In this document: positions 3,712 through 47,087 of the stretch, piece after piece | Numbering within the stretch: position 1 is the first letter of the stretch | How the letters are laid out: every line of letters begins with the position of its first letter | DNA from: a virus | Virus record (IMG/VR): IMGVR_UViG_3300006990_004842 | Coordinates: 1 to 64,000 of that record | Reading direction: 5' to 3' (one strand) | Length of the DNA stretch: 64,000 nt | Program-made: the position numbers and the translations under genes | The notes under the pieces: generated by a model | The model's input: only the letters and a program-made list of their open reading frames with translations | Told to the model about the DNA's origin: nothing | Database searches by the model: none

Positions 3712-4215
3712 TTACATTCCGTTTTCAGGATATGTTTCAACGTTGTTGCTGTTATGCCCAATCATGGATTTGTCATCTTTCTTTTGCATCTCATCGATCC
3801 ATGATGTGGTTCGACCTGCTTTCTTTTCTTCCCAGTCTTGGATAGCACGTTTAATTGAATCCTCTGCTAACACTGAACAGTGTATTTTGATAGGAGGTAA
3901 TTCAAGTGCTTCAGCAATCTCTTTGTCTTTGATTTGCTTTGCTTCTTCGATTGTAAGACCTGTTAACATTTCCACAAACATACTGCTAGAAGCAATAGCA
4001 CTACCACAGCCATATGTTTTGAATTTGACATCTATAATTGTGTCAGTTTCTGGATCTAGTTTTAGATCTAATTTCATTACATCACCACATGCTGGTGCCC
4101 CTGTCATACCTGTTGCTACAGTAGGATCTTTTGGATCAAACTTACCAACACCATGTGCCGCAGGGTTATTTGTCACTTGCTCGAAACGGTCGATTACTTT
4201 CTTTGAATATGCCAT
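3712..4215 (-). CDS. iscU: IscU-type iron-sulfur cluster scaffold protein
   Basis: A 167-aa homologue of IscU, the scaffold on which 2Fe-2S clusters are built before transfer to apoproteins. All cluster ligands are present: C43 and D45 in GAPACGDV, C70 in YGCGSA, and H112-C113 in the HCSVLAED block. The LPPIK segment recognised by HscA-type chaperones is at residues 106-110 (canonical LPPVK). There is a short insertion near residues 15-21 and a ~40-residue polar C-terminal tail. It has its own late octamer (4221-4228) 5 nt before the ATG, with no Shine-Dalgarno sequence. No IscS or IscA is in the window, so it presumably uses host sulfur donors. It may supply clusters during lysis-stage metabolism. 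Confidence 0.93.
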   Translation of the reverse strand: MAYSKKVIDRFEQVTNNPAAHGVGKFDPKDPTVATGMTGAPACGDVMKLDLKLDPETDTIIDVKFKTYGCGSAIASSSMFVEMLTGLTIEEAKQIKDKEIAEALELPPIKIHCSVLAEDSIKRAIQDWEEKKAGRTTSWIDEMQKKDDKSMIGHNSNNVETYPENGM

Positions 4216-13132: not shown

Positions 13133-13426
13133 CTATTTTGCTAGTGTAATGTTTGTAGTACTCTGTAAGTATCCTTTGCTAATTTCTTCTTCAGTTGCAA
13201 CATAAGCAACAACCGTAGTTCTATTTATTAAAAACTTTTCGGCTCTGCTAGTCATCATCCACGGAATAATACCCATTTTGCCATCTGGCGTAGCACTAAT
13301 TGTTGCGGGTTTGGTAACAACTAGATTGGCATCTGTATCATCTTCATAACATGCAATGACTTCTTCACCGCTTGTAAGTTTGATTGATATGGTAGTACCT
13401 TGCTTGATTGGTTTCTCTAATAACAT
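13133..13426 (-). CDS. Sm-like small beta-barrel protein, 97 aa
   Basis: The pattern GTTISIKLTSGEEVIACYEDDTDANLVVTKPATI resembles the Sm1 strand pattern of Sm/Hfq-like barrels. A paralogue lies at 46764-47087, with the similar GKVVTIRTNNGQEIICKLNGV. Both then share a PxxMTSxxExxxxxR-like segment. Sm-like folds often bind RNA, but none of the Hfq RNA-binding residues can be claimed here. An early promoter at 13449-13477 with an AGG site precedes it. Confidence 0.6.
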   Translation of the reverse strand: MLLEKPIKQGTTISIKLTSGEEVIACYEDDTDANLVVTKPATISATPDGKMGIIPWMMTSRAEKFLINRTTVVAYVATEEEISKGYLQSTTNITLAK

Positions 13427-42074: not shown

Positions 42075-42281
42075 ATGCCTATAAAATTTAAGCCCTCACA
42101 AAAAACATTCGTAAAAGGACGAGGAACTAGAATTGAGCATTTCTACATCAAGAACACATCGACTAAAGAACTTATTGAGTACATCAATAAAGGTCAAAAA
42201 CCAAAAGTAAAACAAAAGTGTCGTAATGAACTCGATCGTAGAGGTGTAAATTTAGTTTGGGTTCCAGTAACGTCTGACTAG
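42075..42281 (+). CDS. small basic conserved protein, 68 aa
   Basis: Start at 42075 (MPIKFKPSQKTFVKG) is supported by AGGAGAG. Rich in Lys/Arg; STKELIEYINKGQKP and QKCRNELDRRG are helical, followed by a beta end. A conserved small protein of marine T4-like phages, probably nucleic acid binding. Its last 30 nt overlap the convergent SprT-like gene. Confidence 0.7.
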   Translation: MPIKFKPSQKTFVKGRGTRIEHFYIKNTSTKELIEYINKGQKPKVKQKCRNELDRRGVNLVWVPVTSD

Positions 42282-42650
42282 TTTGTATTCTAAACCGTAC
42301 GCCTCAACTTCACGTTGATCTCTGCCTTTGTGGCTTTTCCTAGATTCAAAAGTACACCCTTCTATAAGTTGTTTTGCATGAACTAATTCATGTGCAAAGG
42401 TCACAACAACTTCATCAAAGTCATACCTTTCGTATTCATAACCTATGTTGGTGCCTCTTGCTAATTCTATAATAATAGATTCGTTGTCTCCTAAACAATA
42501 ACCCATAGCACCATCCAGATGTTTTTCAGATCTTATTTCTATATCAACGTCGTGATCGATGTCTTTACACAGATGATTTAGAACATCTTGACCAAACTGT
42601 TCTAGTTGACGCTTCTGCTGGAGTTGTCCTGTAAAGAAAAAGTGAATCAT
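42252..42650 (-). CDS. SprT-like zinc metallopeptidase domain protein
   Basis: 132 aa. TFAHELVHAKQL carries the HExxH zinc site, and EVEAYGLEYKLV further on gives the third ligand candidate. SprT/Spartan-type enzymes cut proteins, in eukaryotes DNA-protein crosslinks. It overlaps the upstream PP-loop gene by ATGA. Role in phage development unknown. Confidence 0.75.
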   Translation of the reverse strand: MIHFFFTGQLQQKRQLEQFGQDVLNHLCKDIDHDVDIEIRSEKHLDGAMGYCLGDNESIIIELARGTNIGYEYERYDFDEVVVTFAHELVHAKQLIEGCTFESRKSHKGRDQREVEAYGLEYKLVRRYWNPN

Positions 42651-43711
42651 ATGTCTGTACCAATCCTATTAGAATTTTGTATATCCTTATCTTTGACATA
42701 GTCATTAAAAATTTCAAGCAAAGGTTCAAAGTTGTGAAACTTTGGAGCAAGTTGATACTGTCTTTTATTATACCAATCAGTTAGTTCATTGTACTTAACC
42801 AATGGTTTTCTGTACAGGGTATTAAAATAATCTAAATTGCCAGATTGTTTCATATAGTGTATACGAAGTAATTCAAAACCTGTTTCTTTTCTAAATGGTA
42901 CTTTGTATTCTGCCCAATCAAATGCTTTGTAATATTTTATTTTGTAATCATACTGATCATATCTAAACATTTTATCATTGAGCATGTAAGGCATTTCATG
43001 ATATTGTTTGATTACACGCATATTATTATAGTATGCAAGATATAAAATTTCACTACTCATATAGAAAGGGTCAACAATCAAATCTATATTATTTTTATTT
43101 GCAAAATTTAACCATGGCACATATCTTCTTTTATAAAGATCTTTATCCTGCTCGATCCTCATATCAGTAGATACTGGATTTGGTTTATAACCTGGAGGAT
43201 AACATTTGCCATCAAAGTAACCTATGTGTTGAGCCTCGCCACCTATTACAAATGTACTGTCATCTAAATTGTCTAATATGCATTTAGCCTGTGTTGCAAT
43301 TTGAGGACTGTTAAAATAATATTCCTTAGCAAAATCTAACACATGATTGTCTTCTATGAAATCACGCAAATCAAAATCAACGTATGTGTGGTCAGCACCC
43401 ATATGGTCTGCAAATATTTTACTAGATACTACATCGCCTGGGTTGACCACACTGTCGTCCCACATAAATCTAAAGGTTATACATTTTACATTATTACAGT
43501 ACCTATTAAACACATTAAAAGCAAACTGGCTGTCTATGCCGCCACTTAGTAACAATGTAATGGGTTTATCTTTGTAAGGTTCTAATGCTTTTTTGAAATG
43601 ATGTTGTATGTCATAATTGGTTGGCTCTTGTATATAGACGTTGGATACTCCTTCAGAAAAATCAAAAGAAAATGATTTAGAGTCACCAAAAGATAGAGCG
43701 TTTGTTGCCAT
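42647..43711 (-). CDS. asparagine-synthetase-like PP-loop ATPase
   Basis: 354 aa. ITLLLSGGIDSQFAF (about 52-66) is the PP-loop of the AsnB synthetase domain. CITFRFMWDD, TFVIGGEAQHIGYFDGKCYP and FYMSSEILYL follow in synthetase order. The N-terminal glutaminase domain of AsnB is missing, so it would use free ammonia or another amide donor, or amidate a sugar. It starts from a late octamer 6 nt upstream with no Shine-Dalgarno sequence. Confidence 0.75.
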   Translation of the reverse strand: MATNALSFGDSKSFSFDFSEGVSNVYIQEPTNYDIQHHFKKALEPYKDKPITLLLSGGIDSQFAFNVFNRYCNNVKCITFRFMWDDSVVNPGDVVSSKIFADHMGADHTYVDFDLRDFIEDNHVLDFAKEYYFNSPQIATQAKCILDNLDDSTFVIGGEAQHIGYFDGKCYPPGYKPNPVSTDMRIEQDKDLYKRRYVPWLNFANKNNIDLIVDPFYMSSEILYLAYYNNMRVIKQYHEMPYMLNDKMFRYDQYDYKIKYYKAFDWAEYKVPFRKETGFELLRIHYMKQSGNLDYFNTLYRKPLVKYNELTDWYNKRQYQLAPKFHNFEPLLEIFNDYVKDKDIQNSNRIGTDI

Positions 43712-43717
43712 ACAATG

Positions 43718-43725
43718 TATTTATT
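43718..43725 (-). promoter_or_regulatory. late promoter octamer (divergent pair, minus)
   Basis: AATAAATA on the minus strand, 6 nt before the ATG at 43711; divergent from the plus-strand octamer at 43738. Confidence 0.6.
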
Positions 43726-43737
43726 CTAGTAAAATAT

Positions 43738-43745
43738 GATAAATA
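43738..43745 (+). promoter_or_regulatory. late promoter octamer (divergent pair, plus)
   Basis: GATAAATA 47 nt before the subtilase ATG; the leader carries TGGAGC. Confidence 0.6.
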
Positions 43746-43792
43746 CTTATTAGAAATATCCATACATTTAGGACATTACTGGAGCAAATAAA

Positions 43793-45367
43793 ATGGCAAA
43801 ATATTTAATATCGTTAGATAGTGAAGTATATGCTGATAATGCGGCTGGTGCTACAGCCATTACTGATACGGGTGCATCAATTTACACTACGTTTAACTTA
43901 CCGTTAACGTATGAAATTGAAGCAACGCCAGAGCAAATGAACGACATCAGTAATATTACATTACAAGAATATTCAACACTTTCAACGCAAATTATACCTC
44001 AAGGTGCAACATTTAGTTTAGCACACTTGAATTACACTCAAGATCCGCAAGGAAACATTACGTATCAAAACGTACAAAATGGTGCAGGAGTAGATGTATT
44101 CTTGATTGATACAGGAATCAACCCATCTCACCAAGAATTTACAACTGCAAACATTTCCAACTTGTGGTCAAATTTTTCAGATGATAGCGAAATAGATGAT
44201 TACCTCGATGTTGTTGGGCATGGAACAGCAGTTGGAAGTTTAATTGCAGGTGGTAACATTGGCGCGGCTCCAGGCGCACAAATTCACAATGTTAAACTGT
44301 TTAATGCAGTTGACGGTAATGTCACTATAGGTCAAATTGTAAACAGTCTAGATGCTGTATATAACTATCACCAAAGCAATGATAACACAAAACCTAAAAT
44401 TGTTTGTACACCATGGGTAATCAGCCAAAACAGTTTTGTTGATGCAAAGATTCAACAGATGAATCAGAACAACATGATTGTTGTTGCATCAGCCGGTAAC
44501 AATGGACAAGACGTAAACATGTATTCACCAGCAGGAAATGATTTTGCAATCACTGTAGGTGCATTTAACAGCAGTAATGAAGTAACAACATTTACTAATG
44601 GTCCTACAACAGACGGTAGTAGTGGTTTTGTAAACTATGGTTCGGCACTAGATTGTTTTGCACTAGCAGTAGATATTAGTGTTGCTGATAGCAGTAATGT
44701 TGCAAACTATAATACGTCAACAGGAACAAGTTTAGCGGCAGGTATTGCGGCAGGTGCTCTTGCAGGTTATGCTCAACGTGATACTGATCTAAGTGCTCCA
44801 GAACTTAAAGAAAGATTCTTAGCAGAAGGTCACATGTGGGGAGTCAACGACTTAACATATGATAATGCCAATGTTAACTATAGCACAGTTTACAAATCAA
44901 TGGTAACAACCATAAGTAATCAAACACCAGTTTTGTTTGCAGAACAATCAGGTAGAATTAAAAACGTACAACATGGTACAACTACAACTTTTGATTTAGG
45001 CAAAGTTGCCAACTCTGCAGAAATTGCAGTACTAGACTTTGCTCCTTTACCACCGTGGATCAGTTTAGATGTAAACACAGGTATTGTGACAATTGATGGC
45101 ACTCATGCAGACTGTAGTGCAGATTTAGCACCAGGTGTATATATCTTTGCTGTCAAAGGCACAGTGTCACCTACAGCAGATTCTGCAGACAATGTTATTG
45201 TTGTTGAAGAATACAGTGTTGGTTTATATACAACAAATGAATCAGAAGTGGATGGCAGTGGTGACGGTGCAATCAGTTCATACTACTATGATAATAGTAA
45301 TAACGAATATGATGAAGTTGTAAACTATCAAGTTGCTCCTTCAAGTACACCATCATTTAAGCACTAA
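43793..45367 (+). CDS. subtilisin-like serine protease (S8) with beta-rich C-terminus
   Basis: 524 aa. A propeptide-like N-terminal domain (about 1-95) is followed by the S8 catalytic domain: Asp106 in VFLIDTGIN, His143 in VGHGTAVGSL, oxyanion Asn in SAGNNGQD (near 237) and Ser313 in GTSLAAG (Leu for Met, Gly for Pro). A C-terminal Ig/cadherin-like part (about 385-475, PLPPWISLDVNTG) and a Ser/Tyr-rich tail follow. No secretion signal, so it is probably virion-bound or acts inside the cell. It could process virion proteins or cleave host surface proteins. Confidence 0.88.
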   Translation: MAKYLISLDSEVYADNAAGATAITDTGASIYTTFNLPLTYEIEATPEQMNDISNITLQEYSTLSTQIIPQGATFSLAHLNYTQDPQGNITYQNVQNGAGVDVFLIDTGINPSHQEFTTANISNLWSNFSDDSEIDDYLDVVGHGTAVGSLIAGGNIGAAPGAQIHNVKLFNAVDGNVTIGQIVNSLDAVYNYHQSNDNTKPKIVCTPWVISQNSFVDAKIQQMNQNNMIVVASAGNNGQDVNMYSPAGNDFAITVGAFNSSNEVTTFTNGPTTDGSSGFVNYGSALDCFALAVDISVADSSNVANYNTSTGTSLAAGIAAGALAGYAQRDTDLSAPELKERFLAEGHMWGVNDLTYDNANVNYSTVYKSMVTTISNQTPVLFAEQSGRIKNVQHGTTTTFDLGKVANSAEIAVLDFAPLPPWISLDVNTGIVTIDGTHADCSADLAPGVYIFAVKGTVSPTADSADNVIVVEEYSVGLYTTNESEVDGSGDGAISSYYYDNSNNEYDEVVNYQVAPSSTPSFKH

Positions 45368-45377
45368 AAATTATATC

Positions 45378-45395
45378 AAGAATTTTTTAATTCTT
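45378..45395 (+). other. small hairpin after the subtilase gene
   Basis: AAGAATT-TTTT-AATTCTT, a 7-bp AT-only stem directly upstream of the terminator/promoter element at 45399. May help stop or process the subtilase mRNA. Confidence 0.35.
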
Positions 45396-45398
45396 TGA

Positions 45399-45446
45399 AA
45401 CCTCATTATAAATACTAGCAACAGTAAATTATAATGAGGTTTTTTT
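45399..45446 (+). terminator. terminator hairpin that contains the next gene's promoter and ribosome-binding site
   Basis: A perfect 13-bp stem, AACCTCATTATAA (45399-45411) with TTATAATGAGGTT (45429-45441), 17-nt loop, followed by a run of seven T (45440-45446) that ends at the ATG of the next gene (45447). The late octamer is inside the 5' arm and loop (45407-45414), and the GAGG ribosome-binding site is in the 3' arm. Confidence 0.8.
45407..45414 (+). promoter_or_regulatory. late promoter octamer inside the terminator stem
   Basis: TATAAATA. Transcripts starting from it (near 45420) lack the 5' arm, so the GAGG site at 45436-45439 stays free. Confidence 0.7.
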
Positions 45447-46475
45447 ATGGAACTTGACTTAACAACAAAGAACAATGTTTTTAATGCAGTTGGCTCTCAG
45501 GGGCAATGGTTTCAACACAGATGGGGTAAACGTTCTTACCCAAACTTAGAGCTCGACTTTGACGACGTAAAGAAAATTGTTTCTAAACTTGGCAAAGATG
45601 AATCTGTATATGCAAAATCAGTATACGGTGATTCCATGCAATGGGAAAACATTGCCGATTTAGCAAAGTTGTTAGGCGAAAAACTTATTATCACAACATA
45701 CGGTATGGCTGGCGAAGACCAAATAGAAGCCATTAATAAAACTGGTGCATTTGTGCATGTCATGTTAGATGGCATAGATGATTTATGTGGTAAAGTTTTT
45801 CTTAGAGCAAAATGGTCTAAGATAGATAAATTTATCGAAACATGCAATAACAGACTAATTGAGTTTTATGTGTATGAGCATAACAAACATCAAATTCCAG
45901 ATCTTATTAAGTACTGTCATAACAAAGACATTTTCCTAAAACTATCACCTGGCACAGCAAAAGATGCAGTTGGTAGTGCAATCATTGATCAAATGGGAGA
46001 GTGGCTATATGATGTTATGCCAGAGGCAGTAAACACAGACTTTAAGGGGCCTGGATATTGGACTGACGAACTTGAAGATTATGAAAATATCAAACCTATT
46101 GAACTTCAACGTAACACAGAAAATCACACATCATTAAGAACTTTTATGACCAGTCCTGAAGGACGAAGTGTGCTAGAAAAGCCACTGGTATCATCATTCA
46201 TTCCCAACGAAGATTATTTTGATGACTTTGCTGATGAGTACAAAGAAGAAACATCAGATAATTGCTATATTGCAGTGTCTGGTCATGTGTTTAAGAACCA
46301 TGAAGAATACACAATGTTTTCTCAAATGCTCTCACCTGATTGGGACGTATCTACCGAAACTTGTAAAACAGATGCAGTAACACATAATTTATTTGCACAA
46401 AAAGTTTTATGGTACGCCAAAAGATTCGATGAAGAATACATCAACGAAATCGAAATAGATAAAGTCTTTTCTTAA
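45447..46475 (+). CDS. radical-SAM-fold-like protein lacking the cluster cysteines
   Basis: 342 aa. YGDSMQWENIADLAKLLGEKLIITTYGMAG and FVHVMLDGIDD resemble the second and third strands of radical SAM barrels (the GGE-like motif and the substrate strand), but no CxxxCxxC lies in the N-terminal part. If the relationship is right, it is a catalytically dead or repurposed barrel. The C-terminal third (SGHVFKNHEEYTMF) is unique. Expression is likely controlled by the overlapping terminator/promoter element. Ends in a 4-nt convergent overlap with the PAAR gene. Confidence 0.5.
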   Translation: MELDLTTKNNVFNAVGSQGQWFQHRWGKRSYPNLELDFDDVKKIVSKLGKDESVYAKSVYGDSMQWENIADLAKLLGEKLIITTYGMAGEDQIEAINKTGAFVHVMLDGIDDLCGKVFLRAKWSKIDKFIETCNNRLIEFYVYEHNKHQIPDLIKYCHNKDIFLKLSPGTAKDAVGSAIIDQMGEWLYDVMPEAVNTDFKGPGYWTDELEDYENIKPIELQRNTENHTSLRTFMTSPEGRSVLEKPLVSSFIPNEDYFDDFADEYKEETSDNCYIAVSGHVFKNHEEYTMFSQMLSPDWDVSTETCKTDAVTHNLFAQKVLWYAKRFDEEYINEIEIDKVFS

Positions 46476-46759
46476 ACTAACCCAACGTATGTATTAGGAG
46501 ACCCTGTTGATACAGGGTGTCCACACGTGGCTAATGCGCCGATATGTGCAGGTGGTAATCCAGAACACCTAACTCTTGGAGCACCTTGTGCAATAAATGA
46601 AACTGTGTGAGGAGGTTCGCCGTGGGCTGATATTGCATCACCCAAAAGGCTTACAGGAATACCATTTACATTAACTCCAAAAGGAGGTATAGCACCAGGG
46701 CCAACAATGACTCCTAGTGTAACTAAATCTCCTATTTTTGAAATTGGTACGCCTGGCAT
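46472..46759 (-). CDS. PAAR-repeat tail spike tip protein
   Basis: 95 aa from the ATG at 46759 (MPGVPISKIGD), preferred because a late octamer lies 5 nt upstream. Repeats of the type G(x)VSLLGDAISAHGEPPH, CSGLPPAHIGALATCGHPV and GSPNTY are PAAR motifs, whose Cys/His bind a metal at the tip of the central tail spike. It sharpens the baseplate needle that pierces the outer membrane. A longer frame upstream exists but would run into the neighbouring gene. Confidence 0.9.
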   Translation of the reverse strand: MPGVPISKIGDLVTLGVIVGPGAIPPFGVNVNGIPVSLLGDAISAHGEPPHTVSFIAQGAPRVRCSGLPPAHIGALATCGHPVSTGSPNTYVGLV

Positions 46760-46763
46760 GCAA

Positions 46764-47087
46764 TTATTTATCTTCAGTAGAATCGGAGCCTTGCAACTCC
46801 ATCTTAACTTCTTGATCAATCATGTCTTTATAATCATTTGCAGTAAGTTCTAAACTCTCTGCCAGTGTAAATATTTCTCTTGTACTTAATATAAGTTCTT
46901 GAGATGGTGAGGTTAGTAAGAAAGGTAGTAAGACAACATCTTCTTGATTAACATAAACTACTTTAGGTCTATCAACAGTGAGATACTTTTTATCTTCATC
47001 AACACCATTTAGTTTACATATAATCTCTTGTCCGTTGTTAGTACGAATAGTAACAACTTTACCTATTAGGTCAACAACGTTGTACAT
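46764..47087 (-). CDS. Sm-like small beta-barrel protein, 107 aa
   Basis: GKVVTIRTNNGQEIICKLNGVDEDKKYL matches the Sm-like strand pattern seen in the 97-aa paralogue at 13133, and LPFLLTSPSQELILSTREIF matches its second half. It lies downstream of glutaredoxin in the nrdA operon and starts where the glutaredoxin gene ends. Binding partner unknown. Its 3' end contains the late octamer of the PAAR gene. Confidence 0.6.
   Translation of the reverse strand: MYNVVDLIGKVVTIRTNNGQEIICKLNGVDEDKKYLTVDRPKVVYVNQEDVVLLPFLLTSPSQELILSTREIFTLAESLELTANDYKDMIDQEVKMELQGSDSTEDK
46765..46772 (-). promoter_or_regulatory. late promoter octamer for PAAR gene
   Basis: GATAAATA on the minus strand within the end of the Sm-like gene, 5 nt before the PAAR ATG. 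Confidence 0.65.

Follow-up and report, generated by a model that had tools for sequence, protein, structure and literature searches.

A putative terminator hairpin with an embedded late-type promoter that appears to separate two genes of a T4-related phage

A 50-nt element located between two genes of a T4-related phage appears, judging from its sequence, to end the first message, to begin the second inside that very stop signal, and to leave a message that slips through untranslated. Our preferred reading, to which we give a probability of roughly 0.6, is that a terminator and a late promoter embedded in it, together with a fold that masks the start region of read-through RNA, would insulate the downstream gene. 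That transcription terminates, that the promoter is active and where it starts, and that translation is blocked are all predictions drawn from sequence and computed folds. The analysed stretch of DNA (referred to as the window) covers 64 kb of a 98.6-kb viral record, and contains the following features around the element:

43738..43745 (+): GATAAATA, a putative late-type promoter 47 nt ahead of the subtilase ATG (motif placement, relatives)
43793..45367 (+): subtilase-family (Peptidase_S8) protein, 524 aa (PF00082, E 2.8e-24; phrog_3677 protease)
45398..45411 (+): 5′ arm of the terminator hairpin, AAACCTCATTATAA (sequence, RNA fold, stem rarity versus shuffles)
45407..45414 (+): T4-type late octamer TATAAATA, with five bases in the 5′ arm and three in the loop
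45412..45428 (+): hairpin loop of 17 nt, with TAAATA on its 5′ side as the portion kept in relatives (fold, orthologue comparison)
45420 (+): predicted late transcription start A, the sixth base after the octamer, which would span –13 to –6 (PMC1524935)
45429..45442 (+): 3′ arm of the hairpin, TTATAATGAGGTTT (sequence, RNA fold, stem rarity)
45436..45439 (+): Shine-Dalgarno-like GAGG in the 3′ arm, 7 nt before the ATG, kept only in relatives at 83% identity
45440..45446 (+): T7 tract, both terminator U-tract and spacer between GAGG and ATG (T6–7 in all hairpin-bearing relatives)
45447..46475 (+): downstream gene, 342 aa (ORF; homologue alignment, structure model)

The hairpin begins 30 nt past the subtilase stop codon, and inspection of the sequence showed its stem to consist of 14 perfect base pairs (45398–45411 with 45429–45442). 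The initial annotation of this DNA, which had rightly placed a perfect hairpin followed by T7 behind the subtilase gene, had counted 13 bp and thereby missed one additional A–T pair. Its placement of the octamer across the 5′ arm and the loop was correct, as was its observation that the T run touches the next ATG (45447–45449). In the predicted fold, the loop itself holds an inner mini-stem of 4 bp (45413–45416/45423–45426).

No other perfect stem of at least 13 bp was present in the window, of which this hairpin also has the longest (with loops of up to 25 nt considered). After dinucleotide shuffling of the whole window, a perfect stem of at least 13 bp occurred anywhere in 9 of 200 shuffles and one of at least 14 bp in 4 of 200, these counts referring to the stem alone, before a T7 tract, a gene start or an octamer inside is required. 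Moreover, the RNA fold of 45398–45447 reached –16.9 kcal/mol (z = –6.4), a stability attained by none of 200 shuffles. It is improbable that hairpin, T7 and ATG came together by chance. The stable hairpin, the immediate U tract and the stop codon upstream are those of an intrinsic terminator. A generic terminator scan of the window did not list the hairpin, but is uninformative in this case because it takes loops of 3–8 nt only, and an Rfam search over 43000–47000 gave no match.

By count alone, the octamer does not stand out (5 observed in the window versus 7.5 expected). Its placement in the 98.6-kb record is nevertheless distinctive, as 21 of the 39 ATAAATA sites lie at most 60 nt upstream of a gene start on the same strand, versus 1/18, 1/20 and 2/38 for similar 7-mers. 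Relatives likewise place ATAAATA upstream of gene starts, and pooling of 36 non-redundant late promoters yielded the consensus TGATAAATA-CT-N3-A, in which the sixth base after the octamer is A in 24 of 36. Because the T4 rule sets the octamer at –13 to –6 (PMC1524935), this A would correspond to +1. Taken together, the sequence comparisons point to ATAAATA as a real late-type promoter motif in this phage group. Homologues of the late sigma factor gp55 were not found in the record or in its relatives, all of which are partial, nor was a gp45 homologue found in the record. The linear record is probably a fragment: its terminase shares 58.6% identity with the one of PA5oct, a related complete phage of 287 kb that encodes a gp55 relative.

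The spacing between ATAAATA and the start codon was found to be bimodal. An ATG opening at least 50 codons lies exactly 5 nt after ATAAATA at 9 of the 39 sites in the 98.6-kb record, and at 6 nt at three. Eight of these nine are in the window, at 4215(–), 7906(–), 19880(+), 20461(+), 25525(+), 31493(–), 46759(–) and 59800(–), and the ninth is at record position 80912(–); a Shine-Dalgarno sequence is absent in all nine genes. Sites with the 5-nt spacing were also seen in relatives (eight in G001, six in G003 and four in G004), and pattern matches numbered 9 versus 1 for a reversed control in HTVC008M and 8 versus 4 in PA5oct. In T4 the closest spacing between octamer and ATG is 13 nt, and the 5-nt class is absent. 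By the –13/–6 rule, the 5-nt spacing puts +1 at the A of the ATG, from which one would expect the late mRNAs of such genes to be leaderless in this phage group.

The gene upstream of the element would itself be late, as the nearest promoter is the late-type GATAAATA of the subtilase gene, beyond which the genes are divergent; the relatives G001, G003, G006 and G009 likewise have ATGATAAATACTTA 47 nt ahead of their subtilase genes. Sigma70-like matches near the element on the + strand were weak only, and their total count was at chance level. Because the subtilase has a conserved late-type promoter and the genes beyond it are divergent, it is doubtful that the element serves to gate early against late expression, and insulation between two late units seems the more likely purpose. 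Elsewhere in the window, strong sigma70-like promoters (TTGACA-N17-TATAAT-like) were noted upstream of the genes ending at 13426, 17601, 33063, 33863 and 50714 (all –), which are likely early promoters of the same phage. The region divergent from the subtilase (42252–43711, –) showed weak asparagine-synthase/QueC-like similarity at 42647–43711 and a weak metallopeptidase-like neighbour at 42252–42650 (–).

Orthologues of the downstream protein located in viral contigs were used to examine the conservation of the element. In relatives at 83% protein identity the hairpin is identical, while at identities between about 40% and about 27% (L009, L010, L012, L017, L355, L360, L365, L367 and L043) the stem sequence has been replaced, resulting in at least four different stem groups (AACCTCATTA, AACCGTG[C/T], GCCGCAC and GCTGCAC). 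Despite this replacement, the hairpin, the T6–7 tract and the abutting ATG are retained, and TAAATA always sits at the 5′ edge of the loop, the other loop bases being variable. Computed energies of the native hairpins range from –12.9 to –18.2 kcal/mol, versus a mean of –5.4 for half-swapped chimeras between stem groups; most chimeras lose the fold, but GCCGCAC and GCTGCAC, the two most similar groups, still fold when swapped. Because hairpin, TAAATA, T6–7 and ATG have been kept with at least four different stems, we infer that the overlay of terminator and promoter is under selection. The device is not essential to the downstream gene, since two orthologues (L362 and L363) have no hairpin and a third (L368) has a different start arrangement, with TTAAATA 5 nt before the ATG and no terminator. 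The T run is always on the sense side, and bidirectional termination as the conserved function was ruled out because an opposite-strand T run is present in some relatives only.

In contrast to the T tract, GAGG is confined to the 83%-identical relatives, the distant ones having ACGG, GCGGC or GCAGC at the same place. The ribosome-binding site claimed by the initial annotation is thus present in the 3′ arm of this phage, but is specific to its lineage. By this comparison of sequences, the conserved element consists of the terminator (GC stem plus T6–7) and TAAATA, and does not include the ribosome-binding site. This bears on the notion that the hairpin might be a translational switch only, hiding the start site in the style of T4 gene e with no termination of transcription. 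The geometry of promoter, arm and Shine-Dalgarno sequence does match that of T4 gene e. However, T6–7 follows directly on the GC-rich stem base in every hairpin-bearing orthologue while the Shine-Dalgarno sequence is not kept, so that conservation obeys the rules of a terminator rather than those of a Shine-Dalgarno sequence, and T4 gene e has no T run. We consider a pure switch highly improbable.

Another possibility is that TAAATA(CT) acts as an RNA signal in the loop, bound by a protein such as a translational repressor or an antiterminator, and is no promoter at all. Such a signal could explain why TAAATA is invariably found at the loop, which in L365 is exactly TAAATACT. It could also accommodate the fact that the motif in relatives is mostly [AG]CTAAATA or GTTAAATA, differing at octamer position 2 (C or T) from their other late promoters, which have A, and thus departing in the distant relatives from the usual late motif of the group. 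On the other hand, the motif of this phage matches the T4 octamer perfectly and ATAAATA marks the starts of genes in its genome, the TTAAATA of L368 lies 5 nt before the ATG without any terminator, the remaining loop bases are free to vary, and the T4-like phage Aeh1 has CTAAATA, with C at –12, as its late consensus (PMC1524935, PMC2988020). These observations make an RNA signal very unlikely, and argue for the promoter that our preferred reading assumes.

According to that reading, an intrinsic terminator would end the subtilase mRNA, while its 5′ arm and loop would house a late promoter of T4 type for the gene that follows. Guided by the late sigma factor, RNA polymerase would start at about A45420, and because this predicted start sits in the loop, the late mRNA would lack the 5′ arm; it could then form no hairpin, and U7-AUG (together with GAGG in this lineage) would be exposed after a 27-nt leader. 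Polymerase coming from the subtilase promoter would mostly stop within the U tract, immediately ahead of the ATG, and read-through RNA would keep the full hairpin and bury the start region. The outcome would be insulation: expression of the downstream gene would depend on a promoter of its own and not on the subtilase, itself a late gene, and the downstream gene may, as the initial annotation proposed, be translatable from that promoter only.

Folding of both transcripts, a check proposed together with the initial annotation, was performed for six sequences. The Shine-Dalgarno region had a probability of being unpaired of 0.000 in read-through RNA, as expected if such RNA hides the GAGG, versus 0.44–0.92 in late RNA, and the predicted start base was A in six out of six. 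The expectation that the late mRNA would be open was borne out in that its predicted start excludes the 5′ arm, but not in full, as the GAGG of this lineage remains partly paired in it (0.44).

The hiding of the start region might also be a mere by-product of a terminator and a late promoter, the latter lying inside the hairpin to save space and the occlusion having no regulatory effect. The restriction of GAGG to the nearest relatives, whereas GC stem, T6–7 and TAAATA persist, is in line with this simpler arrangement, as are the scarcity of intergenic space (4752 non-coding bp in 98.6 kb) and the late-type promoter of the subtilase itself. However, occlusion is predicted to be near-total in every lineage tested, so that it should have an effect if there is any read-through, and T4 gene e and I-TevI use a like geometry for regulation. 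We therefore regard the by-product explanation as rather unlikely, and favour an element that would insulate its gene at both levels.

Whether the design recurs elsewhere was addressed by scanning the whole collection for a hairpin and an octamer ahead of GGTTTTTTNATG. Among the matches listed, most were ordinary terminators whose hairpin did not include the motif, and ATAAATA was inside a terminator hairpin before an ATG at 7 of 112 distinct sites, compared with 2 of 111 for a control 7-mer, one of these two control matches being an orthologue. Such a scan, suggested with the initial annotation for other marine phages, delivered a few plausible cases, but among the matches listed only a small excess over the control word. 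Plausible like designs precede a tail-tube gene in L207 (phrog_45), a tail-fibre-assembly gene in L145 (phrog_3304) and a 113-aa gene in L443, the latter with GATAAATACTAG. A further inside match, in L214, was rejected because the gene behind it is a bacterial-type dehydrogenase, as judged from its translation, and those in L202, L216 and L129 were rejected because the ORF behind was missing or cut off. Tentatively, and with somewhat less than even odds, the element may represent a conserved three-in-one module of the T4 superfamily, with a late promoter in the terminator loop and a U tract abutting the start, that would insulate its gene both transcriptionally and translationally and recurs elsewhere (L207, L145, L443). 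That ATAAATA was only somewhat more frequent than the control 7-mer in pre-ATG terminator hairpins across the collection (matches listed), and that the octamer is not over-represented by count, would fit a terminator and an AT-rich 8-mer overlapping by coincidence. About ten distinct orthologous sequences, however, have kept the motif while their stems were replaced, which contradicts such a coincidence; we consider it extremely improbable.

The 342-aa protein encoded downstream of the element had no Pfam or PHROG match, and no homologues were found in bacterial or archaeal genomes. A first structure model (pLDDT 59) was too poor and was replaced by a second, based on an alignment of 14 homologues (pLDDT 70.8), the best PDB matches of which include SkfB (E 1.2e-5), BlsE and MoaA. 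This model predicts a radical-SAM-like fold without the N-terminal cysteine motif, the conserved N-terminal region TTKNxVYN...QGQWxQHRxG having no CxxxCxxC motif, and the protein is possibly a cysteine-less radical-SAM relative. It is followed by a PAAR-motif gene (46472–46819, –) in which the ATG at 46759 lies 5 nt after an octamer; this ATG, rather than the TTG at 46819, is likely the true start.

Several T4 genes are known to be under a comparable type of control. In T4 gene e and I-TevI, a late promoter lies within a hairpin that sequesters the ribosome-binding site, and similar inhibitory structures have been described for soc, 49, I-TevII/III, segB and Aeh1 mobE (PMC3014915, PMC2988022); gene e is regulated by its hairpin (PMC3014915). 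We found the T4 e hairpin with matching geometry (AATACCTTCTA-taaatact-TAGGAGGTATT-ATG). Like these systems, the present element has its octamer in the 5′ arm and loop, a Shine-Dalgarno sequence in the 3′ arm (predicted to be sequestered in read-through RNA, although distant relatives have no clear one) and a predicted late start, 45420, that lies 3′ of the 5′ arm. The placement of the octamer in the 5′ arm is therefore not new, being used by T4 genes e, soc, 49 and I-TevI. T4 e has no U tract, whereas here a T7 tract leads from the stem into the ATG, and termination of transcription is therefore expected as well; distant relatives, moreover, have not kept the Shine-Dalgarno sequence. A T run directly before an ATG is missing from all T4 TATAAATA hairpins examined. 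Furthermore, the transcripts silenced in T4 are early or middle ones, whereas the upstream unit here is late-type.

The element also resembles an intrinsic (rho-independent) terminator in its GC-rich base, T6–7, position behind a stop codon and compensatory changes, but differs from an ordinary one in having a promoter in its loop and a U tract that touches the next start codon. As in other late promoters of the T4 family, for which TATAAATA, with T or A at –13 in RB49, KVP40 and S-PM2, has been reported (PMC1524935, PMC2988020), the octamer would span –13 to –6 with A at +1, and such promoters are found upstream of structural and other late genes; the [AG]CTAAATA of the relatives matches the Aeh1 late consensus. 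Unlike them, the promoter is embedded in a terminator. From the sequence comparisons, what is new is that gene e type logic is fused to an intrinsic terminator that directly adjoins the start codon. This would extend such control from the early silencing of late genes to the separation of two late genes, and would let a compact phage genome finish a message, start another and keep read-through RNA silent, all within about 50 bases. Such an element could be used as a small promoter part that brings its own insulation.
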